Of a stretch of 64,000 nt of DNA, positions 4,377-63,397 are shown piece after piece; position 1 is the stretch's first letter, and each line of letters starts with the position of its first letter. Location: contig NC_052490.1 of NCBI RefSeq assembly GCF_009730915.1, positions 31,806,625-31,870,624 on the forward strand, in the 5' to 3' direction. A program made the position numbers and the translations under genes. A model generated the notes under the pieces. It worked only from the letters and a program-made list of their open reading frames with translations, made no database searches and was not told where the DNA came from. The DNA is from Dioscorea cayenensis subsp. rotundata (lineage: Eukaryota > Streptophyta > Magnoliopsida > Dioscoreales > Dioscoreaceae).

Positions 4377-4699
4377 TATGTATATATATTCAATTAAAAA
4401 ATCAAAAATCATGTTCATGGCCTTTAAAAATAAAAAAAATTGTCACCGATCAAAAGATTTCTTGTTTTTAAAACAACGCCTTTAACTTCTAATTCTTTCT
4501 TGTTGGTTTTGCAACACATCCTCTTGGCCTATTAGCATTGACTTTCTTACATGTGATGTTTGTTTTAGGGAGAACTCAAGATTGAATGCTGAAGTTCATA
4601 CAAAGTGAGAGTACATCTTTAACTTTCCTTAAATAGGTAGCGCTTGTCACTTGTTTGTTAAAAAAAAAAAAGTTCCTCCAATTATTTGTTTATATTGAG

Positions 4700-4785
4700 G
4701 GTTGAAAGCTTCTTTTACTCCGGAGAGGAACCAAAAAAAGTAATAACCTCTTTTTAGTAATTTGTAAAGGAAGCTTCAATCACTC
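4700..4785 (+). ncRNA. Candidate foldback A, miR159/319-like cluster
   Basis: The 5' arm starting at 4701 (GTTGAAAGCTTCTTTTAC) pairs with the 3' arm around 4764-4780 (GTAAAGGAAGCTTCAAT), leaving a loop of about 45 nt. The order resembles plant MIR159/319 precursors, in which the mature RNA is on the 3' arm. This copy is the more diverged of the two, and whether it is processed is unknown. Confidence 0.35.
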
Positions 4786-5205
4786 ATTTATCTATTAAGA
4801 ATGGGAGTGGTCATATAAATTTTAGTAATTTGTGAGTTACCTTAATCACCGAGTTAAATATTTTAAAAAATTCCTAAATGATAACTCGTCTAATATTTCT
4901 TACCCATTTTTAGATATCCCAAAAAATTATGGTTATTTTAGACATTCTTTGATATGCGTAAATACATTTTCAATAGATTTCTATATTAAGAGATCATAGT
5001 TTTTTTGGACTCCATAGATGAACAAAAACGGATAGTGATATATATATATATATATATATTCTTATGTGGAGTGAAGGTAGCTTTGACCTTTCTTTATCTC
5101 CATCTTCTTTACACATGTGCATGTCTCTGTCTTTCCCTAAATAGTGGTTGACTCTTGTCCCTGCTTGTAGAAAAAGAAGGTTATTTCAATGATTTGTTTA
5201 GATCG

Positions 5206-5276
5206 AGGGTTGAAAGCTTTTTACTTCAAAAATCAGAAAAACAATTATCCTCTGGAGTGAAAGAAGCTTCAATGAC
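5206..5276 (+). ncRNA. Candidate foldback B, miR159/319-like cluster
   Basis: This is the counterpart of foldback A in the second tandem unit. The 5' arm is near 5209-5228 (GTTGAAAGCTTTTTACTT). The 3' arm is near 5253-5273 (TGGAGTGAAAGAAGCTTCAA). By eye the 3' arm matches plant miR159 (TTTGGATTGAAGGGAGCTCT and a final A) at about 15 of 21 positions. It is a candidate small-RNA precursor or a decayed one. Confidence 0.4.
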
Positions 5277-5536
5277 TCTTTTATCTATAAATCATGGCGG
5301 ATAATATAAATATCTAGTAGTTTTTGACTTACCTCAATCCTCGAGTTAAATATTTAAAAAAAAAAACTTAAATGGTAGTTTGTCTAATATTTCTTTCCCA
5401 TTATTAGATATCTCAAAAGATTATGGGTAGTTTAGACATTACTTGGCATGCGTAAACATATTTTTAATATAGTTTTATATTAAGAGATCATAGGGTTTTT
5501 TTTTTGGCTTATAACTCTAGAGAAGAACCAAAACAG

Positions 5537-5598
<62 letters not shown>

Positions 5599-5640
5599 TT
5601 ATGTGAAGTGAGAGTAGCTGTAACCTCGCTTTATCTCCAA

Positions 5641-7460
5641 ATAATTAGAGATATAATATTACTACTAGTAAATAATTACTCATCTAGATATCTCATGGTC
5701 AAATTCAAATCATCTCAAATGATTGTTTTGCTATTATATTTTTCTTTCAAATATTGTGGTTTGTTGATATTGATTGCATGTAGCATATAAGAATATCCGA
5801 AGAAAAAAAAAATGATGCTCAATTTTCTTGTCTCTATTATGTGAAAATCATTTCACTCGTTATTTTATTTTTTTCTCAACGGAGGCAGAATATGAATCTA
5901 GTAAATAGTTTGTTGGATATTTATGGTAAAAATGTAAATAATTTTTTATCTCCAATATTATTAGTTTTATAGTTATGTTATATATATATATATATATATA
6001 TATTCTCTTTATAGTTCAACATTTCATAGAATGATTGAATAACGAAAAGTTCATTGATTATTCATAAACTAAGATTGAAATGTTTTTGTGAGTGATAGTC
6101 TTTAATCTATTTCATTTTTTTTTCCCACTATATAGATGTCAAAGAAATATTATTGATTATGGTTAAACATCGCTAGCATGACTAAATAACTTAATGTCAA
6201 TGGCTTGTTCTTATTGACAAGTTAGAATTTATTTTTAATCCAATCAGAGAGACAATAATCATTTTTTTTTCTCTATGGTTTGAAGGAAGCTCTATAAAGA
6301 TTTTTTTTTTCAAAACATTGTAAATAACAAATGAATATTGATAAATAATGCATTATTTTAACTTTATTTTTTCTTGTCATTGATAGAAATCTTAGAATTT
6401 GTTAGATTATTTAGAAAACAAATGACTATTTTTTTTCTTCTCTTCTACGAAGTGAATCTAGCTCCAATTATTTATTATCGTCTAACACATAAATTTCTCT
6501 TCAAATTTTGAGCATTGAGAAAAAAAACATTATAAATAAATAAATTGATAACTATGACAAAATATTAACTTGGTGTTACTCTTAAAGAAAATGACATGCA
6601 TGCCATTAATTATAAGAGAAAAATTAAGTCACATGATCCGGAAATTAAGACAAACAAAATAAAATAAAGATAAAATTATAAAAGCATTTGTGCAATTATA
6701 CACTGTTTATTCTAATTATCTAGCAATCCTTGTAAAATTTACTTGCAAGCCCTTATTTGGTGGGTGCGTTCCAAGATGCCCCTAAAAATTAGTTCTCAAA
6801 CCACACATTTGGCTTGCCATTGGCTCTCCAATCTCTTTACTTCTTTCTCTCCACTTTTAGATGCCATTATTTATATTATATATATATAATTAAATGTATA
6901 TATATACATATACCATTTCATTATCATGCTTGAACCTTCCATGATTATTTTTCTTAATAATATTCTATGCTATGAAAGAGGATGAATTTTATGCTCTAAT
7001 AATCCAGTCTTAGTGGGTATTGTCTGCCACCTTTTAATTATTAACTAATTAAATTTGAGTTAAGTTTTTGCCAACAAATGGTACAGAGAAGGATATTTGA
7101 TAGTTTTTCTTGTTGTTTATTTATTTAATTTTATATATTTTTTTTTTATTTAATAGAATTGTGGTTATCAATCTTGGTGTTTATTTTAAAGGAAAAAAGG
7201 AGCATCAATTTCTCCTTAATAACAGTGCAAATATAAAGGAAAACATTCTTTTGACTCTAAAAAGAAGACCCCAAAATGGTAACTCCAACTAAGAGCACAC
7301 CTCATGAAAATTTTTCTAGATTGTGCCTTCTCTTTTTAAGAAGTTTGCTCTTTAAATAGTACCCATCTCCCCCCATATAATATGCCTTTCCTTGATTTAT
7401 AATAATAATAATTATAAATAAATAAATAAAATAAAAGGAAACACAAAATCACAATCTTCC
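5641..7460. other. AT-rich region with scattered miR159/319-like motifs
   Basis: No protein gene is visible. After T-rich runs the region repeats a degenerate motif of the form GAAGTGAATCTAGCTCC, at 6274-6294 and about 6447-6466. The sequence after each motif is weakly repeated (for example AAAACATTGTAAATAA and AAAACATTATAAATAA), so this looks like a decayed continuation of the tandem array. TA tracts occur near 5978-6002. Confidence 0.5.
6274..6294 (+). other. 21-mer closely matching miR159
   Basis: The 21 bases contain GGTTTGAAGGAAGCTCTA. They differ from the canonical plant miR159 sequence, as I recall it, at about 3 of 21 positions. I could not find a convincing complementary arm within about 150 bases upstream, so this may be a decayed copy rather than an active precursor. 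Confidence 0.4.
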
Positions 7461-7467
7461 CATTGCT

Positions 7468-7475
7468 TATATAAG
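7468..7475 (+). promoter_or_regulatory. TATA box upstream of hairpin candidate
   Basis: TATATAAG is followed by GGGG and a pyrimidine-rich leader. It lies about 170 bases upstream of the hairpin at 7637-7724, a plausible distance for a Pol II primary microRNA transcript. No protein-coding frame follows, so a noncoding transcript is the natural reading. Confidence 0.4.
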
Positions 7476-7636
7476 GGGACTAATAAGTGACTCAAAACCT
7501 CACAACCATTCTTCTATTAAGGTTTGAGAAGCTTCTTCTCCTTCTCCTTCTCCTTCTTCTTCTTCTTATAAGTATTATTATTATCATATATTGCTTGATT
7601 AATGGGTAAATGAAAGAGTATTGAGGTAAATGACTA

Positions 7637-7724
7637 AATTGGGTCTCCCCTTACTCCACATGAGAATTAAAGAGAAGAGATTTTGTTCTTTTTTTTCTTG
7701 TATGGAGTGAGGGGAGCTCCAATT
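7637..7724 (+). ncRNA. Candidate microRNA precursor, miR319/159-like
   Basis: Arms at 7637-7664 and 7697-7724 pair over 28 positions: 22 Watson-Crick pairs, 4 G:U pairs and 2 mismatches by hand count, with a 32-base loop. The 3' arm segment ATGGAGTGAGGGGAGCTCCA matches Arabidopsis miR319 (TTGGACTGAAGGGAGCTCCC) at about 16 of 20 positions. The 5' arm contains GGTCTCCCCTTACTCCA, like a miR319 star strand. The foldback is shorter than typical MIR159/319 precursors (near 200 nt). It could be a divergent family member, a young microRNA, or only an inverted repeat. Confidence 0.5.
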
Positions 7725-7740
7725 ATTCTCTCTCTCTCTC

Positions 7741-9220
7741 TCTCGTTAAAAATTATTTATATTTATCTATGTATCTTTCATTTGTATGAACATATGTTGC
7801 TATATATATATATTACATGCATGCATGTGGCAATCTTCAATTAAGCATGTTTTAATATTGAAGGCTTGTGAGCAGAAAGTGCATCTTTATCTTTCTTTGT
7901 AATGTCAATTGCTACTTAATTTATTTTATTTTTCAGGTTTCAACTCATGGAAATGGAAGTATTCTTCATCGATATATATATATATATATAGGGGAATTAA
8001 TATTATAATTGGATTTTCATGATGGAAATGTGGAGTAAATTGGATGACAGTGATCAGTGAAGAGGATGAGGAGATGAAGAAATTAGAAGAGAACGAGTTT
8101 CTAATGTCCATTTTTATTATTTTTTTTTTTTGAAGAAATAATGTCCATTTTTATGATAATATGTTTGTATTAATTACCAAAAATTTATTGCGAGGAAAGA
8201 AAATGATTCTGGCTCAAACATGTGAATCAGGAGAAAGACGTGCATGTAATATAAAAAGTTGGAATAGACTTCGGAAGTATCTATATCATATTTATTTTAT
8301 TTTATTTTATTTTTGATAAATACAACAAGTGTTATTAGAGACATGCTCACTGGTTGAGAATGAAGCATTTATATTATACGTGTCATGAGTTAGTATATTT
8401 CTTATGTAATATATATATTTTTATTAATTAATTTATAATTTATTTTTTCATTTATTCAGTCATTACTATTTATTGTTTAGTATATAAATCATTATAATCA
8501 AACCAAATAAAGCACGCAAGTTCTTTTAAGTGAATAAGTAATATAAATTAAGATTTATTAAAATAATAATTTTATTAAGTAATTAATTGATTTGGAACTA
8601 TTAATAATTTTAATTAATATATTATATTGTATATGCCAGTTTATTTAAACCACCGCGTTACAAACAAACAAATCACACAATGAGTTAAAAATAAATAAAT
8701 AAATAAATAACCTAAATGGAATTGTTTGGCAAGTTTAGCATCTTTGGATGATGATATGACTCCAAATCAGAAAACACCAACTATTCTTTATGCCCAAAAT
8801 TGCAATTAAACAATTAAGGGCATATTTAGGTATAAAATATTTTTTATACAGTAAAAATTTGTGCAGAAAGTGGCAATGATTAATTACTATGGAAATTTTT
8901 ATAAATTTTAATTCTACCAAATGAGTGATTGGTTTACAATGTAAAATATTTACTACATAAATAATTATAACAATAAAAATCAGTTATTATATATATATAT
9001 ATATATAATAAATTACTTTTTTAGAAATGTATTTTTATAGAATTTTTTAAAAAGCTATTGTGGAAGACACATTTGTGAGATAAACTTCGAAATTTCTTTT
9101 ATATTCTATTTTTAAGATACATTTAAAAGATAGTTTTAAAAAATATCAAATATTTTTTAAATATTTTTTATAATAAAATAATGATAAGCATTGAATGCCA
9201 CGCATGAGAGAGAATGAACT

Positions 9221-17430: not shown

Positions 17431-20400
17431 CTAAGCAATGCTTGTCGTAGCATTCAATTCCAGCTTGATTTTCTTCAGTTTTACAGTGACATCCTTCATG
17501 CTGATCCTCTCTTGGGGAGATTCCTTAGAGCACAAAAGCCCCAGTTCAATGACTGAACATAAACACTCCTCCATGCTGTCCTCGTTTTCCAATAAGCCGG
17601 CATCCATCACTTGCAGTATTGAAGCTGGGAATGCACCATTCACCCACTGCCTCAGACTTTCTCCTCCGCTGAACATCTCATCGGTCGGCTTCCTCCCAGT
17701 AAACGTCTCCAATAATAAAATCCCGAAACTATAAACATCCCCTTTAACAGAAATTCTTCCCGTCGATCCATACTCTGATGATGATACACATGTAAGTTAC
17801 AAACATAGCAAAAGAAAAACCGATAAATGGATAGATACACACAAACGATATGCATACCTGGAGCCATGTATCCTATTGTACCTTGAGCAACAGATTGTAT
17901 CAGAGACTGATCATCTCTATCTCCAGCCAAGAGCTTTGCAATTCCAAAATCACTGACATGAGCTATTAATTCATCATCCAAAAGCACATTGCTTGGCTTC
18001 AAGTCACAATGCACAACAACTTGGATGTACTCTTGATGTAGATACTCCAATGCCAATGCTACATCCAGCATGATACTAACTCTCTGATTGAAACTCAGGT
18101 AACAATCCCCGGAATGCAGCCATCTCTCAAGACTCCCACAAGGCATGAACTGGAGAACAAGAGCTTTGAAGTCTAAATTAGAACAAGTACTTATAATTTT
18201 CACAAGATTTCTATGCCTAACCATGCGCAAGACTTCGCATTCGACATCAAAGCTTTTGATGGCATCATCTAAATCCAAATTCAGTACTTTTATAGCCACC
18301 ACATTGGCTTCTTGTAGTTGTAGCACTCCTTTGTACACTGATCCATGGCTTCCTACACCTACCAAATTGGCTTCGCTGAAGTTTTCTGTTGCCCGAACGA
18401 GTTCATAGTACGTTAGCGTTGGATGATACATTACTGTAACTTGTTGCTGCTGTTGCTGCTTCTTCTTCTTCTTCTTGATGAAGAAGCATGCTGATGAGAC
18501 TAGCACTGCTGCAATGATTGCCACAATGATTGCTGGGAGAATATATATGAGCCGGATATTCTTTGTCTTCGATTTGGTTGAGTGACTAAACTTGCAAGGT
18601 GAGACACCTAGTTTTGTTTCACCACACAATGCCAAGTTCCCCATGAATGATTCAGAGGTGAGATTGGAGAATACTCCTCCACTTGGAATCGCTCCCTCCA
18701 AATGATTGAATGACATATTTATGAAACTGAAGTAAGAAAGGTTTGCCAAGGAATCGGGAATTGTCCCGGTAAGTGAATTTGAAGAAATATCCATGCCTTC
18801 TATGTTCAACAACTTGCCAAATGATTGAGGTATCAAACCAGAAAATGAGTTGAATGATAGAATTAGATACTTGAGCATTTGGAGATTTCCAATAGAGAAA
18901 GGAATGCTACCATTCAAGTTGTTATATGATAGATCAAGCTCTCCTAAAGCCTTCAACTTCCCAACATCTGAACTTAGAGGTCCCACTAATGAATTCAATG
19001 ACAAGTTGAGGAAGTAGAGGCCTTCAAGTGTCCAAATGCTTGCAGGAATTGTAGATGTTAGAGAATTACCAGCGATCGAAAGGCGTTGCAGAACGGTGAT
19101 GTTGCTTAAGCAGTCTGGAATGGATCCTGTGAACTTGTTTTCAAAAAGTGAGAGAATTGAAAGAGATGTTAATTGACAGAGTTCAGGAGGTATAGAGCCA
19201 CCAATTCTGTTTGTATAGAGATAGATAAGTTGCAAGTTCTGAAGCAGAGCAATGGAAGAAGGAATAACTCCAGAGAATTGATTATCATGCAAGTTCAGGT
19301 ATATCAAACCAGTCATGTTACCTATACTTTCAGGGATTCGTCCTTTGAGTTGACAATTTGGAGCTCTGAATCTCAAAAGTTTTGTTGAGAGATTCCCAAT
19401 GGAGTCTGGAAGGTAACCACCAAAATTATTCTCACCAATCAACAAGTTTTCCAAGTATCTGCATCTTGTAAGAGTGTCAATGAACTGAACTCCATTCTCT
19501 AATTGGTTTCCTTGAAGACTAAGTACTTGCAGGTACTCCAAGTCTCCAAGTGAATAAGGAACTGAACCACTGAAAAAGTTATCAGAGAACTCCAAAATGG
19601 ATAACATTGAAGCATTTGACAGAGAACTTGGAACTTCTCCACTGAACTTGTTCTCACTCACATACAGTCCTTGAAGTTTCGGCAACCGATAACCGATATC
19701 CATCGGTAGACTACCGGAAAGATTATTGAATGAGAATGAGAGTTTCTCCAGTGAAGAAAGATTGAAGATTGAATTTGGCATAACACCAGAGAGAAAATTT
19801 TCAGCCAAGTTCAAGAACAGCAATCCATGCAAACTTCCAAACTCTTCAGGTATGTTACCTTCCAAGTGGTTATCACTCACGCTTAGGATTTGAAGCCTTG
19901 TGAGGTTTGCAAGAGAGGTTGGAATGAAACCAGTGAGGTTGTTAACACCAAGATTAAGGACTTGCAGGCTCAACAAGCTCCCGAGCTCCGGCGGTATACT
20001 TCCGGTGAACTCATTGTAAGACAGAGACAGTGTATGTAGTTTCCGGCATTGGCCTAAGCTTGTCGGTATCGAACCGGTGATCTGATTATAAGACAAGGAG
20101 ATAAATTCAATATGAGGAAGACGAACAAGATGATCAGTTATCACTCCAGAGAGCTTGTTCTTGCCAAGAGCAATGGAATGCAATGAAGAACTAGTAAAGA
20201 TAGAAGGAGGTATAGCTCCGGTGAGCTCATTGATGGAGAGGTCAAGGTACTTAAGACGGCGGAGATTTCCAATGTCTTGAGGGATGTAACCATGGAGAGA
20301 ATTGTTGGAGAGGTTTAAGGAGGTGAGGAAAGAGAGATTGGCAATGGAAGGGGAGATGGTGCCTTGAAGAAAAAGAGATTGAAGATTGAGAGAGATGAGT

Positions 20401-20636
20401 CTATGTTTGGCAGTGTTGCATGAAACTCCATTCCAGTTGCAGAAGGAGGTGGTGTTCCAATTGGAGAAGAAGGTGGTGTGAGTAGTGATGAGTTTGGATT
20501 TCAATGCAAGAAGTGATTGGAGATCAGTGAGGTTGCTGGTTGGCAATGGAGTTGAACAAGGGATTAGTATTAGTAGTAATTCTAGTAAGGTTGGTAGGAG
20601 GAACTTCTTCTCCATTGCTGGAGTTTGGTTAAGCAA
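17431..20636 (-). CDS. LRR receptor-like kinase, subfamily XII (EFR/XA21/FLS2-like)
   Basis: Plasma-membrane receptor kinase. Relatives FLS2, EFR and XA21 sense microbial patterns; the ligand here is unknown. Two coding exons, 17858-20636 and 17431-17774, join to restore the APEYGS motif and give 1,040 residues. The start could also be the second ATG at 20615 (MEKKFLLP), just before the signal peptide. In order: signal peptide, LRRNT region with CNWNGVSC, about 23 extracellular leucine-rich repeats (LxxLxLxxNxLxGxIP), a transmembrane helix near 696-720, a juxtamembrane run of six Lys then six Gln at 721-732, and a kinase. The kinase has the glycine loop at 760-765, the VAIK lysine near 783, HCDLKPSN at 876-883 and DFG at 896-898. 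HCD replaces HRD, so this is a non-RD kinase as in immune receptors. The intron after the APE codon is typical of the subfamily. No break is seen. Confidence 0.95.
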
Positions 20637-21359
20637 AGATGAAGCTTTTTGTAGATGATCAAGAACTTAATTGGGTTGCTGGTTGACTTTGTGTTGCTCT
20701 AGCTACATGCAGATCGAGATTGATAGTTGTTTCTACAATAACTTAATTGGGTTGACTTGTGTTGCTATACATGCAGAGATTGACAATAGTTTCAAATAAA
20801 TAAATAAAGAATACAAGAGAATTTGCATGATTCGATAACTTTGACCAGCGCCCATTGATCAGGGAAATTTCAAAAAGAACTTTGTGGTTTTGAGTTTTGC
20901 GAAATAGGTACAGACAATTTTGTTTCTCTTTTAAATCAAGTGATTTTTTCGACTAAAAAAATAAAAATAAGAATAAAAATAAAAATAAAAATAAAATTAT
21001 TAGTTTTTCTTTATTTGGTACGCATAAAATTATCATTTCATTTGTAAACTGATTTATATAATATAAACGTAATTTTTTTTCTTTATTAATCCCTTTTAAA
21101 TTTGGAATAAGGAAAAAAACTTAAAATCATATAAAACAAATTTAATTATGTTTAAAATTATGTTATTTTTCATGCAATTTGATAATTTTTAGCTCAATTG
21201 ATAATTTTAACTCAATGTCAACTGTTTCCCCTATGGAAAACCATATAATTTAAAAACAGAATAAAACAAAAATTTTTCTACCTTTATTTCGCAAAACTTG
21301 CAAACTGTAAATTTTTTTAAAAAAATTTCTCTAACTAGAACTAATTATAAAAAAAACTT
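20637..21359. other. Upstream region of receptor kinase, nothing further recognised
   Basis: AT-rich. It contains an imperfect repeat of GACTTTGTGTTGCT and TTGACTTGTGTTGCT phrases near 20680-20775 and an AAAAATA tract near 20955-20995. The receptor kinase promoter must lie here, but no firm TATA box was identified. Confidence 0.4.
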
Positions 21360-36552: not shown

Positions 36553-39500
36553 ATGGATGCTATGGTGGACGATGATGGGAGTGTTAGATCGGATAGATCA
36601 GATCAATCAAAGAATGAGAAGATCGTTATGGAGCCGTTCATGGGGATGAAGGTGCGGGGAAGGGCATCGCTTCACCGGGACTGCGAGGGAGATTATTTGG
36701 ATGTGCCTTCTGATCCCCATCTAATGAAGATCCTATCAAAACAAGGTCTTCCTATAATTATTTATTTCTTTGTTTTTGATGTTTATGATTTTTTGGCAAG
36801 CATGATTTGTGTTTGAGTTTGGAACGCAAACTAGTGTTGTTATGTATATTAGTTTGATAATTATGCGCCTATAATTTAACATTTGCACATTTTGATTAGT
36901 TTATGGGGGTGCTGTGTATTATCTAATATGATGGACTATTCTCTTCTCAAGATTTGGTTGGCTCTTTTTAAGTTTTGATGTTTTCTCATGCAATTTTTGT
37001 TGGAAATGTTTGTGTGAGTATGTGGTCTAACCAGCTCTTGCATGACACTCAATGTAACGCACAGAAATTAGGTATTTAATTAGACTTGAAAGTTTGATGG
37101 TGTCAAATATTCAATCTGATATGAGCTCAGAGTTAATTAGACTGTTGCCACATTGCTGGCAAGTCTCAACTTTCTATTAAGGTATTTAAAATTTATATTG
37201 TAAATTGATTTGATGTCTTAGAGGTGTCATTTTCTTGGTCTTTGCCACAGTCTGTGTCCTTTTTCTCTCTACTTGAGACCTGCAGAAGAGCTTGCCTTGA
37301 TCATGAGCTGGAAATTTAACTATCATGAACATAATTACTGAGAATCTTTTGAATGGTTCTCTTTTGGATCTGCCAAATCATTTGGTTAGACAGTTTGAAG
37401 ATTTTAAGACATTAAGAAATTTGGAGAAACAAAATGTCTAGTAGTCATTCTACCCAGACTACAAATTTTGTGCTAGGTTTTGTATTGTGTTTGATTGAAG
37501 TGATCGCAAACATTGCACACTTCTCCAACTGGCACTCTCTAATTTATTTTGTTTTATAATTTGTGAAAATGTTTTTAAAGGTTATCAAGGAACTTGAACA
37601 AACTATCTTTGAAAGCCTGTTGATGATTCAGGTTCCCTGAGCTTTTGGAATACTCTGGCTGTCTTCAATGATTATAGTTCTTGGTAGTGTAAATTACTGA
37701 CAAAGCAAGTTAATTTATGGTTATTTACAATTGAATAATTGGAATTTGTCACTTATGCCAAAACCACTGCATCTATGCAGGTGATGACAAGGTTCTGTTT
37801 GCGGACAGGGTTCTAAAGTTTACTGGATCAGGAAAGATGAAGCAGCGTATCTTGTTAATTACGGACTTTGCCATTTACATTATTGACCCAGATTCTGATT
37901 TGTTAAAACGACGCATTGCACTTGCAGCTGTCGATAAGTTATGCTTGAGCAAGTTGAGTGATAATTTTTTTGCAATCATTGTTCCAAGCGAGTATGATTG
38001 CCTAATGGCCAGCACTCGGAAGACAGAAATTGTTAGTGTGCTAGTTGATGCTACCAGAAGCACATCTGAATATGAACTTGAGGTGGATTTCTCAAACAGG
38101 TAAAACTGCTTTCAGTAATTTGTTTTGTCTCTTCCTACGTGGTCGTTAAAAAGCACTAGGTAATCTCACTGGTGTGTCTTCACAACCTTTTGGTTATTGT
38201 ATGGCACTTCAACATAGGCAAGTGTAGATCACCATATGGTGTGGTGCAATTGTGATTCATTATTGGCTTTACATACAATTCCTAATTATCTATAATATGA
38301 TTAGTCATCTATTACAATGATTGGGCAATCGTTATACATTTATATATGGCTCTCATCTCTTGTTTCTACTTCATCTGATTTGCCCTATTCATCAACATCA
38401 GCACACGTACGACATGTTTTTAACTGGTCATATGCTATTTTATTTTATTTTTCAAACTAACAATCATATGTGGTTCTGTCAGTTTAGTGCATATTATTCA
38501 GGTCTGTCACTTTGAAACTAGTTTTGCAAGTGGGAAGTCAAACATTCCAGGCATATCAGTTCCCAGAAAAAATAATTGATATATAAATGATTGCCACTTG
38601 GGCCATTTTCAAGCTATTGCAGTTGGGCTCTTGTTTAGAAACTCATAAGAATTTTTTTTGCATCTTCAAATTTATGCCTTGGTGAACCTGATTTTAACAA
38701 CAAACATATAAAACATGCAAGATGTCACATTTCAACCACAAGAGCTATATTCAAATCTTTATATCTTAGTTTTTTGTGGTGTAGCAATCATCTAAGTACT
38801 ACTAGCTTCTTCAATTAAATTAGTTAACATTGATGTCATATTTTCCTTAGTGTCCTCAAAGGTTTGTTTGTTTGTATGTTTTTGTTTTTTGTTTTTTTTT
38901 TTAAATTTGGAAAAATTCCTTGCTTTTCTAATTGTTGCAATATCTAATAGTCTGCAAATTCAATCCAACAGTAGTTAGAAGAATACTTTTACGGTTTATG
39001 GTTTAGATTGCATTTTGTAGCCATTTGTTCGGGACTTCTGCTAGAAGTTTACAAAACAGTGATAATTTTTGGTGGTGCTAGCTAAGTTGTCTTTTCTACA
39101 AAAGAGTGGCTCTTGTCTGTGGTACATGAACTTGTCAAATGCATTATATTGGAGCCATTTGTTTTTTTACTCATACGGCGGTAGTTAGGCTGAATTGCAT
39201 AAATCTAGTGGCACTAGGATTTTATAAAGTTCAATAGGGTCTTTACTTGGGAATTTTCTTGTTTAATAAATTTTTATTCTTTGGGATGTGTTATATTTTG
39301 AGTCATATTGCAGTAGGTAGGCTGAAATATTCAAATCTGCTGGCACTGAGATTTTTCTGGGAGTGGTAGGGTTTTTACTTTGAAATTTATTATTTTAGGT
39401 ATTTTTATTCTATGAAATATGCTGATTACATGAAAGTTTTCGTCAACCTTTGGTTACATCATATGTAATTTTTTGTTGACTCTGGAATGAAAGCAATAGC

Positions 39501-42470: not shown

Positions 42471-42745
42471 TTTGGCAAAAATATTCTTTTTAAAATCAAT
42501 TGAAAAAGAATTAAAAAAAAATGGATTTCCAACATTTCCCGGTATTAGGTATACGTATCCGCCTACAAATCTAATTGCCCTCTCATTCATTGACTTTATC
42601 AGACTTGCAAACATCTGACAATTTCCCAAAAAATTAATGCGCAAAAACTATGAAAAAGTCCACGTAGAGCCTCATTTATTTCAACTGCCACCTTGCTCTC
42701 TTCTTTCACATGACACGGCTTCCATTAATGATTAATTTGTGCATT

Positions 42746-42752
42746 TATATAA
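42746..42752 (+). promoter_or_regulatory. TATA box, hydroxylase copy 1
   Basis: TATATAA lies 123 bases before the start codon, in a promoter block of about 400 bases shared by all three copies. An AC microsatellite follows in the leader. Confidence 0.7.
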
Positions 42753-42868
42753 ACCTCACCACCTTCTTCTCAATCATGCAAAGTGAAAACCATATACACA
42801 CACACACACTACTCCATAGAATCCCACATCATCTTTCTCTAGCTATCTCTCTCTATCTCTCTTTCACA

Positions 42869-43785
42869 ATGGATGAGTTCTTTAGTTCAGATGAATTCAT
42901 GGTGATGATTGTCCCACTCATAGTTTACTGGGTTTATTCAGGCTTGTATGAGATGCTTGGCTCTTTAGACAACTATAGACTCCATTCCAGAAGAGATGAA
43001 GATACCAAGAACTTAGTTTCCAAGCTTGATGTCTTCAAAGGAGTTCTTTTCCAACAAAGTCTTCAAGCTGCCACTACATTCCTCATCTTCAAGGTACACA
43101 TATATCCATATATATATATATATACCTCCATATATATATATACATACATATATATATATCTTTAAATATTAATCTTATATATAATTAATATTCATCATCA
43201 TCTTCTTCTTCTTATTCTGATCAGTTAACACATGATCCCAATCAATCTAAAACAACCAGCACAAGTACTACATCATCTTTTCCGACACTGGCTCGGCAAA
43301 TCTTCGTCGCAATGTTCGTATTGGATGCATGGCAATACATGGTTCACCGGTGCATGCATTCAAACAAGTTCTTGTACAGAAACTTCCACTCATGGCATCA
43401 CAGGGTTGTTGCACCCTATGCTTTTGCAGCTCAGTACAACCACCCTTTGGATGGATTTTTCACAGAGGCTTTAAGTGGAGCTATGGCCTTCTTCATCTCA
43501 GGGATGTCAGCAAGGACATCAATCTTCTTCTTCTCATTTACAACCATTAAAGGGATTGATGATCACTGTGGTCTTGTTTTGCCATGGAATCCATTTCAGT
43601 TGTTGTTCAGTAACAACACTGCTTATCATGATGTGCATCACCAGCTTTCTGGAAGCAAGTGTAACTTCTCACAACCTTTCTTTGTTGTGTGGGATAAGGT
43701 TTTTGGGACTTATGCTCCTTATAGTATTAAAAAGAGAGAAGGTGGTGGATATGAAGCAAGGGTCTTAAAGAGTTGTGATAATTAG
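42869..43785 (+). CDS. Sphinganine C4-hydroxylase (SBH type), copy 1
   Basis: Fatty-acid hydroxylase superfamily enzyme of the endoplasmic reticulum. It adds the C4 hydroxyl to sphinganine, making phytosphingosine for glucosylceramides and GIPC lipids. Two exons, 42869-43093 and 43225-43785, give 261 residues, matching Arabidopsis SBH1/SBH2 length and sequence (KNLVSK, DAWQYMVHRCMH, NKFLYRNFHSWHH, SARTSIFFFSF, NFSQPFFVVWDK). The di-iron histidine boxes are intact: HRCMH at 116-120, HSWHH at 130-134 and HDVHH at 210-214. Residues 8-26 and 97-113 are hydrophobic. Copy 1 differs from the other two at residues 154 (F, not L) and 255 (V, not A). The intron of about 130 bases is filled with TA tracts. 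An upstream in-frame ATG at 42776 lies where transcription should begin and is unlikely to be used. Confidence 0.93.
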
Positions 43786-43971
43786 TACTGGTGTAGGTGA
43801 AACCGTAAAAGTTGTTTAGCTTTAACAGTGAGGTAAGATAAAGGAACAAACGGGCTTGTCAAGTTGTACTTACAAAGTCAGACATTGTGTCGAGACATCT
43901 TCATGTACTTTTTAACTATAAGAGATAATTATATCAAAAGCACTCCAGTTACATTTGGAACATAATTGGTG

Positions 43972-50727: not shown

Positions 50728-50931
50728 TTTCCCGGCATACGTATAAACCCACAAATCTAATTGCCCTCTCATTCATTGACTTTATCAGACTTGCAAACAT
50801 CTGACAATTTCCCAAAAAATTAATGCGCAAAAACTATGAAAAAGTCCACGTAGAGCCTCATTTATTTCAACTGCCACCTTGCTCTCTTCTTTCACATGAC
50901 ATGGCTTCCATTAATGATTAATTTGTGCATT

Positions 50932-50938
50932 TATATAA
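50932..50938 (+). promoter_or_regulatory. TATA box, hydroxylase copy 2
   Basis: TATATAA lies 119 bases before the start codon, in the shared promoter block. Confidence 0.7.
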
Positions 50939-51050
50939 ACCTCACCACCTTCTTCTCAATCATGCAAAGTGAAAACCATACACACACACACTACTCCATA
51001 GAATCCCACATCATCTTTCTCTAGCTATCTCTCTCTATCTCTCTTTCACA

Positions 51051-51967
51051 ATGGATGAGTTCTTTAGTTCAGATGAATTCATGGTGATGATTGTCCCACT
51101 CATAGTTTACTGGGTTTATTCAGGCTTGTATGAGATGCTTGGTTCTTTAGACAACTATAGACTCCATTCCAGAAGAGATGAAGATACCAAGAACTTAGTT
51201 TCCAAGCTTGATGTCTTCAAAGGAGTTCTTTTCCAACAAAGTCTTCAAGCTGCCACTACATTCCTCATCTTCAAGGTACACATATATCCATATATATATA
51301 TATACCCCCATATATATATATATACATACATATATATATCTTTAAATATTAATCTAATATATATAATTAATATTCATCATCATCTTCTTCTTCTTATTCT
51401 GATCAGTTAACACATGATCCCAATCAATCTAAAACAACCAGCACAAGTACTACATCATCTTTTCCGACACTGGCTCGGCAAATCTTCGTCGCAATGTTCG
51501 TATTGGATGCATGGCAATACATGGTTCACCGGTGCATGCATTCAAACAAGTTCTTGTACAGAAACTTCCACTCATGGCATCACAGGGTTGTTGCACCCTA
51601 TGCTTTTGCAGCTCAGTACAACCACCCTTTGGATGGATTTCTCACAGAGGCTTTAAGTGGAGCTATGGCCTTCTTCATCTCAGGGATGTCAGCAAGGACA
51701 TCAATCTTCTTCTTCTCATTTACAACCATTAAAGGGATTGATGATCACTGTGGTCTTGTTTTGCCATGGAATCCTTTTCAGTTGTTGTTCAGTAACAACA
51801 CTGCTTATCATGATGTGCATCACCAGCTTTCTGGAAGCAAGTGTAACTTCTCACAACCTTTCTTTGTTGTGTGGGATAAGGTTTTTGGGACTTATGCTCC
51901 TTATAGTATTAAAAAGAGAGAAGGTGGTGGATATGAAGCAAGGGCCTTAAAGAGTTGTGATAATTAG
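51051..51967 (+). CDS. Sphinganine C4-hydroxylase (SBH type), copy 2
   Basis: Second array member. Exons 51051-51275 and 51407-51967 give 261 residues identical to copy 3 and differing from copy 1 at residues 154 (L) and 255 (A). The three histidine boxes are intact, so it should be an active ER hydroxylase. Its intron, promoter and early 3' flank are almost identical to the other copies apart from TA and AC repeat lengths. The leader has the shortest AC tract of the three. The downstream spacer is the cleanest in the array, with no large insertion. Confidence 0.93.
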
Positions 51968-52917
51968 TACTGGTGTAGGTGAAACCGTGAAAGTTGTTAG
52001 CTTTAACAGTGTGGAAAGATAAAGGAGCAAACAGGCTTGTCAAGTTGTACTTACAAAGTCAGACATTGTGTAACTTATATATGGATCGAAGACATCTTCA
52101 CGTTTTTTTTTTTTCTTTTAATTATAAGAGATAATTATACCAAAGCACTCTAGTTACATTTGGAACATATTGGTGACTATATAGGTATATATTCTTAGGC
52201 ACAAAATCAAAAGAAAGGTTTTTCTATTAAAAAAATTGACAATATCTGTATAGAGACCATCAATTCACTATAGAGACGAAGCAATACAAAATGGGAGCTA
52301 ACAACAATGGATAGGCTCCAACTCCCAATTCTCCAAACTTTTCTCTCAATCCCTAGCTCTCTTAAGAAACCCAAAAGACCAGCCAATCTCTACCATCTGG
52401 GGATTGAAAGATGAGCTTAAATAGACATTGGTCTGAAAGCCCCAAAATAGCTAAATATTACAAATGGCCAATTTTCTATTCAACTACACATATAGAAAAG
52501 AAAAGAAAGTGAAAGAGGAGCCAAACATCACATTTTCAATTGACTTGCTTGGGAAAATAAAATTCTAACTAGACAATTTTGTAAAACAATGTTGCAATAG
52601 AATCTCAACAGTAATATGCATGTATACTCTGTCATTTAACAGAAGAATCAATCAACGACATGCTCCTCATTTGCCTTTACTTCTTGAATTTCGGGCCATT
52701 ATAGATACATTTTCAACCTCCCCGCCTTCTAGCGTCTTTGGTCCTCCTTGAGGCTCAACTGCAACTTTAATCTATATGATTTAGAAAATCTTTTTATTAG
52801 CATAACAATCACATCTTCAATTGCACTGCTTTGTCCTTACATTTTATAATTGTTAAAATCAATCGCATGCTTTTTACTTGGATTCTTGCAACTCTGGAAG
52901 TATTAAATAGAAAAAGA

Positions 52918-54010: not shown

Positions 54011-54274
54011 ATTTTGGTCCTTTTTAAGTCAATTGAAAAAGAATTAAAAAAATGGATTAATTTCCAACATTTCCCGGCATACGTATAAACCCACAAATCT
54101 AATTGCCCTCTCATTCCTTGACTTTATCAGACTTGCAAACATCTGACAATTTCCCAAAAAATTAATGCGCAAAAACTATGGAAAAAGTCCACGTAGAGCC
54201 TCATTTATTTCAACTGCCACCTTGCTCTCTTCTTTCACATGACACGGCTTCCATTAATGATTAATTTGTGCATT

Positions 54275-54281
54275 TATATAA
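54275..54281 (+). promoter_or_regulatory. TATA box, hydroxylase copy 3
   Basis: TATATAA lies 127 bases before the start codon, in the shared promoter block. Confidence 0.7.
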
Positions 54282-54401
54282 ACCTCACCACCTTCTTCTC
54301 AATCATGCAAAGTGAAAACCATATACACACACACACACACACTACTCCATAGAATCCCACATCATCTTTCTCTAGCTATCTCTCTCTATCTCTCTTTCAC
54401 A

Positions 54402-55310
54402 ATGGATGAGTTCTTTAGTTCAGATGAATTCATGGTGATGATTGTCCCACTCATAGTTTACTGGGTTTATTCAGGCTTGTATGAGATGCTTGGCTCTTTA
54501 GACAACTATAGACTCCATTCCAGAAGAGATGAAGATACCAAGAACTTAGTTTCCAAGCTTGATGTCTTCAAAGGAGTTCTTTTCCAACAAAGTCTTCAAG
54601 CTGCCACTACATTCCTCATCTTCAAGGTACACATATATCCATATATATATATACCTCCATATATATATACATACATATATATATCTTTAAATATTAATCT
54701 TATATATAATTAATATTCATCATCATCTTCTTCTTCTTATTCTGATCAGTTAACACATGATCCCAATCAATCTAAAACAACCAGCACAAGTACTACATCA
54801 TCTTTTCCGACACTGGCTCGGCAAATCTTCGTCGCAATGTTCGTATTGGATGCATGGCAATACATGGTTCACCGGTGCATGCATTCAAACAAGTTCTTGT
54901 ACAGAAACTTCCACTCATGGCATCACAGGGTTGTTGCACCCTATGCTTTTGCAGCTCAGTACAACCACCCTTTGGATGGATTTCTCACAGAGGCTTTAAG
55001 TGGAGCTATGGCCTTCTTCATCTCAGGGATGTCAGCAAGGACATCAATCTTCTTCTTCTCATTTACAACCATTAAAGGGATTGATGATCACTGTGGTCTT
55101 GTTTTGCCATGGAATCCTTTTCAGTTGTTGTTCAGTAACAACACTGCTTATCATGATGTGCATCACCAGCTTTCTGGAAGCAAGTGTAACTTCTCACAAC
55201 CTTTCTTTGTTGTGTGGGATAAGGTTTTTGGGACTTATGCTCCTTATAGTATTAAAAAGAGAGAAGGTGGTGGATATGAAGCAAGGGCCTTAAAGAGTTG
55301 TGATAATTAG
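54402..55310 (+). CDS. Sphinganine C4-hydroxylase (SBH type), copy 3
   Basis: Third array member. Exons 54402-54626 and 54750-55310 give 261 residues with the same protein sequence as copy 2. The histidine boxes HRCMH, HSWHH and HDVHH are intact. The intron is slightly shorter because of its TA tracts. In exon 1 it shares GGCTCT with copy 1 where copy 2 has GGTTCT, but in exon 2 it follows copy 2, a mosaic pattern. The leader has the longest AC tract. Downstream the unit 3 spacer is more diverged and carries a Copia fragment and a LINE. Confidence 0.93.
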
Positions 55311-55555
55311 TACTGGTGTAGGTGAAACCGTGAAAGTTGTTAGCTTTAACAGTGTGGAAAGATAAAGGAACAAACAGGCTTGTCAAGTTGTACTTACGAA
55401 GTCGGGCATTATGTAACCTACATATATATATAGAAACATCTTCATGTTTTTTTTTTCTTTTACTTTTAATTATAAGAGATAATTATATCAAAGCACTCCA
55501 GTTACATTTGGAACATAATTGCTGCAACAATATATATATATATATATCAAAAGCG

Positions 55556-57196: not shown

Positions 57197-60100
57197 TTTT
57201 TATTTGAGAAAAGTGGATAAACCACTACTTTATTGAAAAAGAAGAGCAGCAAATCAAAAGTACAACCAACAGGGAAAACAAAGCAAAGAGTTCTCACAAG
57301 CAGTGAAGAACTCATAAAAGGAAATACAAGTAGTCAAATAAGGCAGCTGGGAAAGCGAAGAAATCCGTCTGGAGTCACAGGATAGTCCGAGCTGCAAGAA
57401 GGAGTAGATTACTCTTGAATCAATGGAGTGTCAAGATTGCCGGTGTTATCTACGGTCCGTGCGCTCAGGAAGTCGAGCGAGCGCCTTATCTTCTCGGAGG
57501 CTTCATTGAGTGTTTGTTGGTGGGGTAAAGAAGCTGTAGAAAACCAAGCAAGCAACATATTAATGATTTTGAATAATACTTTAGGAAAAGGTAATGCAGT
57601 GTTTTGAAAGATGCGGTTGTTACGTTCCAGCCAAATATGCCAGATAATTGCTCTAGAAAGTAGGTCCCACAGCAATATAATGTTTGAATGTAATGAAGGT
57701 AACCATAAGGTCCAGATGCTTGAAACTGTGGAAGGTAGAGATTGTAGATCAAGAATGTTGGAAAAGTAGGACCAAAATCGGAAAGAATAGACACAATCTA
57801 AAAAGAGATGATCTACTGTTTCAGAATCTTTGTGACAAAGAGTGCAAGTATCTGTGGCGTTTGGGTTACATCCCTTCTTAAAGAGATTAGTGAGTGTGAG
57901 AATTTTATTATCCCAAACAAGCCAGCAGAAAAGAGTAATTTTACTTGGACAATGAATTTTCCAAAATTTAGAATACAGTGGACTGCACATTCCTCCATCA
58001 ATTAAAAAATTATAGAATGATTTAACAGAGAAAGTGTCATTCTTTTCCAATGTCCAAGTAATGGAATCATCCTGATCATGAGAACAGTCTGGAATTAAGT
58101 TTAAGATAGTAGACAAATCTTCTCGTATTGTGGAATGAAAAAAACTTTCAGCAGAGTTGCGAAGGTACGAGAATTGTCTAAGGGAAATCCATGGTTGGGA
58201 ACAATCATTGAATAGTGTTGGCCAAAGATCCTTAAGTACTTGTCCCCCCGTCCATCTATCATGCCAAAGAAGAGTATCCTTGCCATTTCTAACAGTTTTG
58301 GAAATACATGATCTAAAAGAAAGTAGGGTAGTGTTGACACCGGCCCAGAAAAAAGATTTGTTTCTAGGAGGTGTATGAAACAAAGTTCCAGGTAAATTGA
58401 TGGAGTAATTGGATCTAATGATTTTAGCCCAACACAAGTTAGGATTAGATATAAACTTCCACCACCATTTTCCAAGGAGAGCTTTGTTGAATTCAACAAG
58501 ATTGAGAATTCCCCAACTCCCATGGGACGAGGTCGACAGATCCGATTCCAAGCGACCAGTCTAGCTCCTTTAGAGTTTAAGTCTGGCCCTTTCCAAAGGA
58601 AGTCCCTATGAGTCTTATCAATTTCCTTAATTACCTAAGCAGGTAGTTTGAAGACTGTCATCCAGTAAACATGTATTGTGGATAAGACAGAATTAATAAG
58701 GGTTAGACGACCACCAAGGGAAAGGTAAGTAGCTTTCCAAGTGGGAAGTCTCGCTCGGACAGTCTGGATAAGTTTTGTCCAATCCTGGCGCCTGGGTCGC
58801 CTACCAGAAAGAGGTACTCCTAAATAGGTAATAGGGAGACAGTTTATTTTGCAGTTGATAATTGCTACATATGATAAATTTGGTTGAAAACCAAAGTTTG
58901 TTGAGTATAAGCAGCTTTTGGAAAAATTAATTGATAACCCAGAAGAGCCTTCAAAAAGGTAAAGTATAAGTTTGATGATGTGAAGGTCTTCATGTCTACC
59001 AGCGGAGAAGATGATAAGATCGTCCGCATATTGAAGATGGCAGATTCGTTCGTCTTGAAAAAGCTGAACCCCAATTAAGATTTTAGAACTGAGGGCGTGG
59101 TGGAACATGGCACTAAGAGCGTCAGCAGCTAAGGCGAAAAGAAGGGGAGAGAGCGGGTCTCCTTGTCTGAGCCTTTTTTTGCAGCGAATGTAACCTTGGG
59201 TGGTGCCATTGATTAGGATCTGGGCCTTGGCAGTCTTTAGGATGGTATGAATCCACGATAACCATCTGTTACCAAAGCCTCTAGCAGCAAGGATTTCAAG
59301 AAGGAAGTCCCAGTCTAAAGAGTCAAAAGCTTTAGCGAAGTCTACTTTGAAAGCGTAACCAAGAGATTTCTTTTTTTGGAAATGAAAAATTAGTTCTTGG
59401 GCCGCAATGATGTTATCAGCGATACATCTGCCTTTGATGAATCCAGATTGAGATTCATCGACTAAGTCGTTGATCACCAAACTTAGTCTAGTAGCAAGAA
59501 TCTTGGAGATAATTTTGCAAGTGAAATTGATTAGGCTAATAGGTCGAAAGTTAGAAACATCAGTCGGGGCCTTCTTTTTTGCAATAAGAGCTATATGAAC
59601 CCAATTAATCTTTTCAAGGTTAATTGAGCCATCATAGAAGTCTTGGCAAAGATTGACAACCGAATCTTGGAGTATGGTCCAATGTTTTTGAAAGAAGAAA
59701 ATTGGGAAACCATCTGGGCCTGGGGCTTTGTCGGCATTCAGATCAAAAACATCATTTTTGATCTCATCCAAGGTAAACGGCCGATCAAGGGAAGAAAGTT
59801 CAACATGCGTCTTGTAGTTGAAAAGGCTTTGCCAATCAAGGAGGAATCTTTGATTGGAAGGTGTTCCCAAAAGAAGTTGATAGTGTTTGGAAAATAACTT
59901 CCCAATTTCAAAATCCCCTTCCACCCAATGTCCATTATTATGAATTCGGGGTATGAATTGAAGTTCTTGTTACGTCTTCCGTTAGCAATATTATGGAAGA
60001 ATTTGGTATTTGAGTCTCCTTCCTTGAGCCAAGTAATTCTAGATCTCTGCTTCCAATAAATTTCCTCTTGTTTTTGTATAGTGTGTAGTTCAAGGCGAAT

Positions 60101-60289
60101 CTGAGAGAGATGTGTGGATTCAGCTTCTGTAAGAGATCTAAGTTCACTTATGGAATCAAGTGAGGTTAAATCAGAGATAAGGTTTTTCTTTTGAAGATTA
60201 GTCGCGCCAAAGTTTAACTTAGCCCAGTTTCTAAGTTTAGCTTTCATAAGGGCTAATTTTTTAGAGATGATGAAAGCTCCACAACCATC
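57197..60289 (-). mobile_element. 5'-truncated L1-type LINE with ORF2
   Basis: A 3.1 kb insertion flanked by a 13-base direct repeat ATGGATTGAAATT (57184-57196 and 60290-60302). The minus strand reads first a pre-RT segment (60247-59738), then a reverse transcriptase (59924-58635) with NADKAPGPDGF, the catalytic AFKVDFAKAFD block, RQGDPLSPLLF and QYADD at residues 298-302. A C-terminal part (58551-57409) has a zinc-binding zf-RVT region (FWKIHCPSKITLFCWLVW, then C-x2-C and a later H-x4-C) and ends IRRSLDFLSAR. These lie in different frames, so at least two frame changes break ORF2. The endonuclease and ORF1 are missing: a typical 5' truncation. It sits in the unit 3 spacer, whose homology resumes directly after the right repeat. 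Confidence 0.9.
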
Positions 60290-60302
60290 ATGGATTGAAA
60301 TT

Positions 60303-62640
60303 CATGTGAAAATTTTGAAAAGAATTTAAACATGTTGTGAATTGATCTTTCTTGTTGAGTTCATTTAATTAATAAAATGACCAGACTTGTTGATATTTTC
60401 TTAATTGGAATGGGTCAACAAGAGAAATTTATAAAGTATTTTTTGTTTGAAAAATATTTTGAATGTTTAATCCTAAGTAACCACAAATTTTTGAAACTTT
60501 TATAAAACTTCAAAGTTATAGGTATGTTTCTAAGATTGTGACAGTCTTTTGTTTTTCATTAATATTTGATTTAATAACCATTACCATCCCACTCAATTTT
60601 ACTAAATTCTTCTTTTTAAGTTATATTGACAAATCATATTAAACTTATACAGAAATATATATATATGAATTATATTATAATTTGATTCTTAAAGAAGAAA
60701 CAAACTAATTAATTGAAATAAATTATAATTAGAAGGATTTATTTATTTATTTTTAAATAAGTGGACAAACTAGGTCAGTGCATGCACAAAGGCAGAATTA
60801 ACACATAAATTAACCCACACTAGGCAAATTCCCTTGTCTCGCGTTGTTTTTTGTAAATGAATTTAAAAAAATGCTAATAAAACAATACCTACATGAGAAT
60901 CATGCATAAAAAGAAAAAGAAAAAAAAATGAAAGGTAAAAAGAATTAATTACATAATAATAGATATCACAACCTTTTTTTTGTGAATCATTAAAAAAAAT
61001 CAAAATCAAAATGAATAAAATTAGGATTATAATCACATTTTATAGAAATGCTAAAGATAAATAATACACTTGAAAATAACAGTTGAAGAATTCCAACTTA
61101 TTAAATTGAATGGTGTTTATATAGAAAAAAAAGGGGAAGAGTTTTAATTTGAATAAAACCCTAATCTTTATCTCTAAATAAAACTTAGGGGGATAAAGGT
61201 CATTTTGAGCTTATCCATGCTTAAAAAAAGAGAAAGAGTTTTAATATTAATCAAAGTCCGATTCTATCTCATAATTCGGATTTAAAAGAAGAAATATATA
61301 AATTTTAAATTTGAGTTAAAAAAATTAAATTAAAAAAAAAATAATAAATAAAATAAATAAATAAAAAATAAAACATAAATATTCGGATAATGCTAATGAA
61401 AATTCGGATATTTGAAAACAAAAAAAAAAAAATCTTTTGGTTAAAAAAATAATAACAATATTGTGGGCCTGGTGCTGTTGTGAAGTTCGAAGTATGAGGA
61501 AGAAGAGAGTGAATATGATCAGATCCAAAAATGAACAAGAGCAAGAATAGAATAGATAAGATGCTATGAAAATGGATGGAATGGATGACGATGCAAAACT
61601 CCTTGCGAAGCTCATCGGTGTTGTGCCATTTCTCACATGATGCATCTCGTTGTGCAAGCTAGACTTCTGTACATGATCAACAACCTTAGCTCCTATATGC
61701 ACAACAACATTATGAGCCTTGTCATCCTTTTGAAGACCTGCAAAGTAATGGACTCCCAGCCAGCGATCGTCTGGCCGTCATTATCCTCCGTCTAAGGCCT
61801 CAACAAGAAAGTCCTACTGAGATGCTTGACGATGGTGATGCCCTCTTCATGAATCTTGAAGCATGCTTGAGAAGTTCGTCACTCCAAAGAGGTAGATGAC
61901 CTTATAAAATCTCATACCAAGTATATATATACAAGTATGTTTTGGTTTCGTTCAACCCATGCAAGATGCCATGAAGAAAAAAATCTTAGATGAAAGTTCA
62001 TGCAAAATACCTACATTTGGTTGTTAATCCCATGCATAATGCCATAGAAAAAAAATATCATCTTGATGAGGTAGATGAAACTCTATACAAAATGTATAAG
62101 ATGCGTTCTGGTTGTACGCCCCATACCCATGCCATAAAAAATCTTTAAATATTAATGCTAGACCCTTCCCTCTGCATAATTTGTCTTTAAATCATGCCCA
62201 TAGACAAGAGCATATGCATGTTGTTGGTTTTCACTCACTGTGAACACCATCGTAAAAAAAGAAGAAGAAGAAGAAAGAAAAGAAAATTTTTGAGGACACA
62301 TGTACAAAAATGTGAAAATGTGTGAAAATACGAAAGCTCGAGGGTTTAACTGCAAAAAATAATAAATATGGAAAAATATGAAAATATGAAAGTTTGGGGA
62401 TTTATTTGCAAATTTTGATAAAATGTGAAAAAAATGAAAATTTAGAGGATTTAAATGAAAAGAAAAGAAAAGAAGAAAAAAAGGATTTTTTAAGCGAAGA
62501 TGAGGGTATTTTGGTAATTTCACAAGACCCTCTTAAGTCTTAAGCTTACCGTGATGTCTAATGCATGTCGACTGCTCTCTTTTGGAGGGCCTCTTCATTG
62601 CTTCTTAACAGTCACGGAAGCGGATAGACTATTGAAGATC
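60303..62640. other. End of array spacer, then unrecognised AT-rich DNA
   Basis: From 60,303 to about 60,740 the unit spacer continues (AATTTAAACATGTTG, then TTAATCCTAAG), but no fourth gene follows. Beyond that is AT-rich sequence. 61,500-61,870 is less AT-rich and has gene-like composition, but I find no open frame or motif that identifies it. The open frames on the minus strand at 61,305-61,702 and 62,158-62,523 are low-complexity. Confidence 0.45.
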
Positions 62641-62649
62641 CTTTTAAAA

Positions 62650-63310: not shown

Positions 63311-63397
63311 AAGATCTTCAAAAGCCAAACATTTTAAAACAAAAAAAAGAGAGGAAAAAAATCAAATCAAAATCAAGGCATTAAAAAAATGATGAAT

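Follow-up and report, generated by a model that had tools for sequence, protein, structure and literature searches.

A candidate short-foldback MIR159-type gene and a local array of worn relatives in Dioscorea cayenensis subsp. rotundata

A compact foldback and its surroundings

The stretch of DNA analyzed here, 64 kb in length and hereafter called the window, holds an 88-nt foldback on its plus strand, with a TATA-box-like motif ahead of it and an array of degenerate relatives further upstream (Table 1). The minimum free energy of the foldback is -46.5 kcal/mol, compared to a shuffle mean of -20.7 (sd 3.2), which corresponds to a z of -8.0, and none of 200 shuffles equalled it. When the plus strand was scanned in 2130 windows (120 nt, step 30), the one at 7621 had the third lowest z, behind those at 5521 (AT repeat) and 35491.

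Table 1 Window coordinates of the candidate precursor, its predicted parts and the upstream array
Feature	Position	Strand	Basis or remarks
Compact foldback, predicted pre-miRNA	7637..7724	+	36 pairs: 31 Watson-Crick, 5 G:U
Predicted mature miRNA, 3′ arm	7701..7721	+	miR159 likeness and geometry; 5′ U, weakly paired 5′ end
Predicted star strand	7642..7662	+	2-nt 3′ overhangs to 7701-7721
Upper stem and terminal loop	7663..7700	+	fold; two helices with pair probabilities 0.96 and 0.82
TATA-box-like TATATAAG	7468..7475	+	read upstream of the hairpin
Degenerate copy D, 3′ arm 18/24	6446..6469	+	6415-6472 against 7670-7727, 71% over 58 nt, E 4e-4
Degenerate copy C	6213..6306	+	arm 6274-6297, 16/24 to focal arm; Rfam MIR159 16.6 bits, E 1.1
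Degenerate copy B2, 3′ arm 16/24	5602..5625	+	duplicate of B1
Degenerate hairpin A2	5208..5274	+	5′ arm 5208-5229; 3′ arm 5251-5274, 18/24 to focal arm
Degenerate copy B1	4988..5095	+	arm 5065-5088, 16/24 to focal arm
Hairpin A1, tandem duplicate of A2	4694..4790	+	Rfam MIR159 23.0 bits, E 0.026

A preliminary description of this DNA had reported 22 Watson-Crick pairs, 4 G:U pairs and 2 mismatches between arms 7637-7664 and 7697-7724, and recounting pair by pair gave the same figures. The 32-base loop that it placed between them is there but is not wholly open, as eight extra pairs form inside it with a mean pair probability of 0.82. Folding of 7450-7800, which it had proposed as a check, retained the same hairpin within this 351-nt context, and the pair probabilities stayed near-constant in contexts of up to 601 nt. 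The box that it placed about 170 bases upstream was found 162 nt ahead of the hairpin; this 8-mer occurs three times on the plus strand of the window and seven times on the minus strand. The absence of a protein frame, also claimed, holds for stop-to-stop frames of at least 120 codons, none of which lies over the hairpin; among the listed plus-strand ATGs from 7491 onward, short frames of up to 26 codons do touch it.

Predicted duplex and dicing geometry

The predicted miRNA and star strands pair with two mismatches and no bulges and are separated by 38 nt, a geometry that agrees with the structural criteria for plant miRNAs (few mismatches, 2-nt 3′ overhangs). In a rough calculation over few bases, the 5′ end of the miRNA strand was the weaker one (-1.4 versus -2.2 kcal/mol). 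The stem directly under the duplex comprises at most five pairs, too few for base-to-loop processing. On the 3′ side, 15 nt (six pairs, one unpaired, eight pairs) separate the terminal loop from the predicted loop-proximal cut, a count that ignores one lone pair within the loop.

According to PMC8688358, dicing proceeds from loop to base where a terminal loop or bulge sits 15-17 bp above the duplex, and from base to loop where an internal bulge sits 15-17 bp below it. miR159 itself is presented in the relevant part of PMC6724108 as strongly conserved, with an unusually long precursor that is diced stepwise from the loop. In the focal hairpin, about 15 nt separate the terminal loop from the predicted first cut. 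This is the spacing of the loop-to-base ruler, so processing is plausible. We infer that the hairpin would be diced by a short loop-to-base route, in which the direction typical of the family is kept and the middle steps are gone.

Affiliation to the miR159 family

The 3′ arm matches Dof-miR159f at 18 of 21 positions (register 7702-7722) and ath-miR159a at 17 of 21, both query sequences being taken from print. The preliminary description had emphasized a likeness to miR319, at about 16 of 20 positions; we count 16 of 21 to ath-miR319a, in agreement with that claim provided that the canonical sequence used is correct. The best matches obtained in 60 shuffled windows were 16 for Dof-miR159f, 17 for ath-miR159a and 16 for ath-miR319a; therefore, only the match to Dof-miR159f exceeds chance when taken alone, and that to ath-miR159a lies within the chance range. 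A UUUGGAUUGAAGGGAGCUCUA-type mature sequence on the 3′ arm, used as a criterion for MIR159, is present at these two levels of identity.

The focal arm carries a G at position 6 (6/7 by register), adjacent to the seed, together with one change at its 5′ end and an A-to-G change at position 10/11. The same G next to the seed occurs in UUGGAGUGAAGGGAGCUC (or its DNA form), which is printed as a miR159 variant of soybean, grape and others in the parts of the literature that give the sequence, including Table 1 of PMC9320484, where it appears as Dof-miR159f. Meanwhile, GGAGUGAGGGGAGCUCC, which has the added A-to-G, and shorter forms of it gave no match in the main texts of the literature searched.

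At gathering thresholds, no match passed in the Rfam scan of the window. The MIR159 model (RF00638) scored 34.5 bits on the plus strand of the hairpin (E 6.8e-6), below its gathering score of 74, and 22.6 bits on the minus strand. Of the 196 positions of this model, the long middle part has no counterpart in the hairpin. The MIR319 model scored 31.4 bits on the plus and 32.0 bits on the minus strand, both below its gathering score of 54. The same stretch also scored 33.8 bits (E 1.5e-4) with the model of human mir-4782, which is not known as a plant family, so part of the Rfam score reflects mere hairpin shape.

The plus strand is the likelier precursor strand, because its fold is better by 10 kcal/mol (-46.5 versus -36.4 on the minus strand) and because of the difference between the two MIR159 scores. 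A minus-strand precursor was considered and set aside for its poorer fold and poorer MIR159 match; the MIR319 model showed no strand preference.

Taken at the level of the miR159/miR319 superfamily, the affiliation proposed in the preliminary description is supported, and its closer assignment gives way to one nearer to miR159. We consider it highly probable that 7637-7724 descends from the MIR159 family.

Predicted targets

Target fit was assessed with a crude penalty score against one MYB33 and one TCP4 site. On the MYB33 site, the focal arm incurred penalties of 3.0 (register 7702) or 5.0 (register 7701), compared to 3.5 for ath-miR159a, 3.0 for ath-miR319a and 1.0 for Dof-miR159f. On the TCP4 site, its penalties were 7.5 or 8.5, with a G:G clash in the seed, while ath-miR319a scored 4.0 and ath-miR159a 5.0. 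By this score, the focal miRNA should accept a GAMYB-type site no less readily than known miRNAs do, and should not accept a TCP site. Hence, of the two first candidates named at the outset, TCP and GAMYB-like transcripts, the scores favor the latter. We also considered a looser hold of the focal miRNA on GAMYB sites, for which the penalty scores give no support. Slicing may be affected by the wobble at position 10/11.

These scores bear on whether the locus could be a miR319-type gene that targets TCP transcripts, a reading that we regard as very unlikely. The likeness to ath-miR319a and the MIR319 covariance score are in its favor, but the miR159 isoforms are closer to the focal arm, and the penalty on the TCP4 site is above that of ath-miR319a, and the MYB33 site fits. 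Canonical miR319 is recognized by a C at position 6 and by TCP targets; the focal arm has a G there, and together with the poor match to the TCP4 site this led us to reject membership in miR319.

An upstream array of worn copies

Five worn copies of the focal 3′ arm lie 1.2-2.6 kb upstream on the same strand (at 5065, 5251, 5602, 6274 and 6446). The preliminary description made no mention of the relatives found between 4694 and 6472. When matches of at least 16 of 24 positions were counted, the 24-nt focal arm occurred seven times on the plus strand of the window (itself, these five and one at 60149) and three times on the minus strand, its own other arm included. Within 4400-7600, this amounts to five matches on the plus strand and none on the minus strand, and none of 1000 shuffles reached five. 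Among 2764 24-mers of the window with the same GC content, 24 (~1%) had at least five local matches of 16/24, and 41 had at least two of 18/24.

Most of these copies were also recovered with ath-miR159a as the query, a stronger test than one with the focal arm itself. At a threshold of 15/21 on both strands, three of the six non-focal matches fell on the plus strand of 4400-7600 (binomial p 3e-4), and none of 1000 shuffles of the array region contained three. Lowering the threshold to 14 placed 4 of 20 matches in the array (p 1.4e-3; the 20 include the other arm of the focal hairpin), and raising it to 16 placed 2 of 3 there (p 1.8e-3). The best match of the window, at 18 of 21 positions, belonged to copy C (6274-6294), above the focal copy itself, while copy D (6446) was absent from the ath-miR159a matches even at 14/21. 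Within 4400-7800, ten other miRNA families gave no match that reached 15.

In a further test, independent of both queries, a permissive Rfam scan of 4450-6600 assigned 4 of its 13 matches to MIR159 or MIR319, all on the plus strand and at three places of the array, compared to 0 of 27 in three control stretches of equal length. The single E-values are weak, and it is the pattern that carries the weight: copy B1 matched MIR319 with 21.0 bits (E 0.29) and MIR159 with 17.1 bits (E 0.82), and the unrelated mir-1277 (AT repeat, 0.0093) and snoCD11 (0.019) had better E-values than any MIR159 match in 4450-6600.

Some of the copies are related to each other by local duplication. The units that hold A1 and A2 are tandem duplicates (4616-5059 and 5124-5560) with 75% identity, and 5575-5639 of B2 is 89% alike to 5038-5102 of B1. 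Copy D resembles the focal locus along the 3′ arm and the adjoining 3′ part of the loop. The 3′ arm of A1 no longer resembles the focal arm. The focal arm has a G at position 11, where the A of the family is retained in four of the five copies and a G is found in one, as expected if the A-to-G change of the focal arm is recent. The T of the family at position 2 occurs in none of the five.

A long AT repeat (5538-5597) directly precedes the arm of B2, and a shorter one precedes that of B1. The long repeat may have expanded within what was once a hairpin loop.

That miR159 itself detects this array lends support to the membership of the focal hairpin in the superfamily, and it also bears on a different origin for the foldback. 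The locus could have arisen by a young inverted duplication or as a MITE-like repeat, with siRNAs as its product and a chance resemblance to miR159. We judge such an origin improbable, although the arms are almost perfect and the region is rich in repeats, among them the tandem unit described above. In a sensitive search of the 64 kb, 7637-7724 matched nothing but copy D and the inverted arm of the hairpin itself, and no duplicated flank was seen by eye beside the ends of the stem. Furthermore, none of the ten control miRNAs found the array, and the MIR159 and MIR319 models matched three further places and no control stretch. A transposon was likewise rejected, the window containing no further copy of the hairpin.

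Folding state of the array members

Only one of the four upstream members folded here retains a significant fold. A1 (4695-4792) had a z of -4.7, with none of 200 shuffles as good, whereas A2 (5200-5285) had a z of -1.35, with 17 of 200 shuffles as good, and B1 (4990-5105, z -0.3) and C (6213-6306, z -0.2) were no better than shuffles. The idea that the upstream copies are intact hairpins was thus rejected for A2, B1 and C.

The 5′ arm of A1 pairs better with the 3′ arm of A2 (-37.7) than either does at home (-22.8 and -21.6), and at the best offset this cross-pairing reached -40.2, the top of 20,636 cross-pairings scanned. Hence, the tandem unit probably once carried a better hairpin, and its two descendants have since diverged in different arms. 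For six upstream arms, A1 being left out, the best upstream partners ranged from -9.2 to -18.1 kcal/mol, values equalled by 6.7% to 67% of background positions, while the focal arm reached -35.3, equalled by 0%. The partner arm proposed for copy C was rejected, as 43% of background positions equalled its best upstream candidate. The focal hairpin is the last and best-preserved (best-folded) member of the local array.

Comparison with short MIR159 and MIR319 foldbacks

The preliminary description had allowed for a new family on account of the short foldback. This part of it found no support, as such foldbacks are already known as type 2 of MIR159/319 (Li et al. 2011, PMC3118147). In the passages of that study that define the types, type 2 comprises 19 genes and candidates from six species, in which miRNA and star are no more than 60 nt apart and an extra conserved duplex is lacking. 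The focal hairpin, with its 38 nt between miRNA and star, falls within this definition; at 88 nt, it has neither the long stem nor the second conserved duplex of the long bi-duplex foldback of type 1. It shares with the type 2 genes, as characterized there, a miR159/319-like sequence, the short gap and the lack of a loop-proximal conserved duplex. It has in addition its array of worn same-strand members and its 15-nt loop spacing, on neither of which the section cited comments for the 19 genes and candidates.

Among monocot sequences, Dof-miR159f of Dendrobium officinale, as tabulated in PMC9320484, resembles the focal arm in its G at position 6/7 and its 18 of 21 identities, but its locus spans 319 bases, unlike the compact focal hairpin. 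The Dof-miR159g loci span 82 bases by the coordinates of the same source and are short like the focal one. In the sequences given there, both Dof-miR159f and Dof-miR159g lack the A-to-G at position 10/11. The novel pre-miR159 of Phalaenopsis is, by the account given in the relevant section of PMC4254996, another divergent monocot MIR159, with three seed-region changes and without miR159.2; its 214 sequenced bases set it apart from the compact focal hairpin, and that section speaks of no array. Our literature search found no short MIR159 precursors and, for MIR159 clusters, a tomato review with one mention; judged by title and abstract, papers on yam (Dioscorea) miRNAs offered nothing that bears on this locus. 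The short foldback belongs to a known rare class, and the array with graded decay is the unusual part.

Some if not all genes of types 2 to 5 are suspected, in the same passages of PMC3118147, of being pseudo-miRNAs, because processing in this family needs the loop-proximal duplex. The focal locus may fall under the same suspicion. It would then be MIR159 by descent, having lost expression or accurate processing, and younger than its upstream neighbors. The poor partners of the six upstream arms are compatible with such a course, as is the Phalaenopsis pre-miR159, which its authors, in the section concerned of PMC4254996, did not see in leaf small RNAs. We hold a pseudo-MIR159 to be possible but rather unlikely, as the focal duplex has only two mismatches and an upper stem with the right loop spacing, pairing and spacing that a copy decaying freely near worn neighbors would tend to lose.

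A proposed route from hairpin to target

It is very probable that a relative of miR159, shortened and somewhat changed, is present in this stretch. As it directly follows several worn copies of itself, the locus looks like a snapshot of miRNA genes multiplying, shrinking and decaying. Based on these findings, we favor as the probable explanation a divergent MIR159-family gene of type 2, with a shortened foldback and a predicted expression, which is better preserved than the other members of its worn local array. That 7637-7724 gives rise to a processed and loaded miRNA is a prediction in which we place slightly more than even trust.

In the proposed mechanism, RNA polymerase II would transcribe the plus strand from near the TATA box at 7468. 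The terminal loop, situated some 15 nt above the duplex, would direct the first cut of DCL1 to the loop side, in a single-step version of the loop-to-base processing of the family, and a second cut would release the duplex 7701-7721 / 7642-7662. The strand from the 3′ arm, with its 5′ U and weaker 5′ end, would load into AGO1 and direct the cutting of GAMYB-like mRNAs, or of target sites that drifted along with this strand. At the slicing site, an A:U pair would become G:U through the A-to-G change at position 11 (position 10 in the other register).

A more far-reaching, tentative and on balance unlikely extension is that duplication followed by loss of the long middle stem gave a working one-step miR159 variant with a changed 5′ end and a slicing-site wobble, which now controls GAMYB differently or has acquired other targets, its sisters having decayed. 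If true, a birth-and-death series of one of the oldest plant miRNA families would lie within 3 kb. With a compact precursor of unchanged loop spacing, the need for the long stem could be put to the test, the worn neighbors would allow the losses to be ordered, and type 2, a small class of doubtful standing, would gain a case.

Other features of the window

An exact scan of viral contigs gave no matches, as expected for plant DNA, and a scan for bacterial-type promoters and terminators, inapplicable to such DNA, was left out. A frame at 37735-38103 has a Myosin_TH1 domain (class I myosin tail), which is not known to be usual in plants; no myosin motor was found among the other nine frames scanned. 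An LRR receptor-like kinase gene occupies 17431-20666 on the minus strand; the frame changes within its kinase part, perhaps at an intron. A fatty acid hydroxylase-like gene is present in three same-strand copies (42548-43890, 50734-52071 and 54077-55414), each split over two frames and sharing 300-nt stretches of 100% identity; the Pfam search covered one frame of the first copy. A LINE-type reverse transcriptase with a zf-RVT domain extends over several frames at 57409-60301 on the minus strand, and 62629-63998 holds families of degenerate, minisatellite-like direct repeats spaced 59-139 and 133-197 bases apart.
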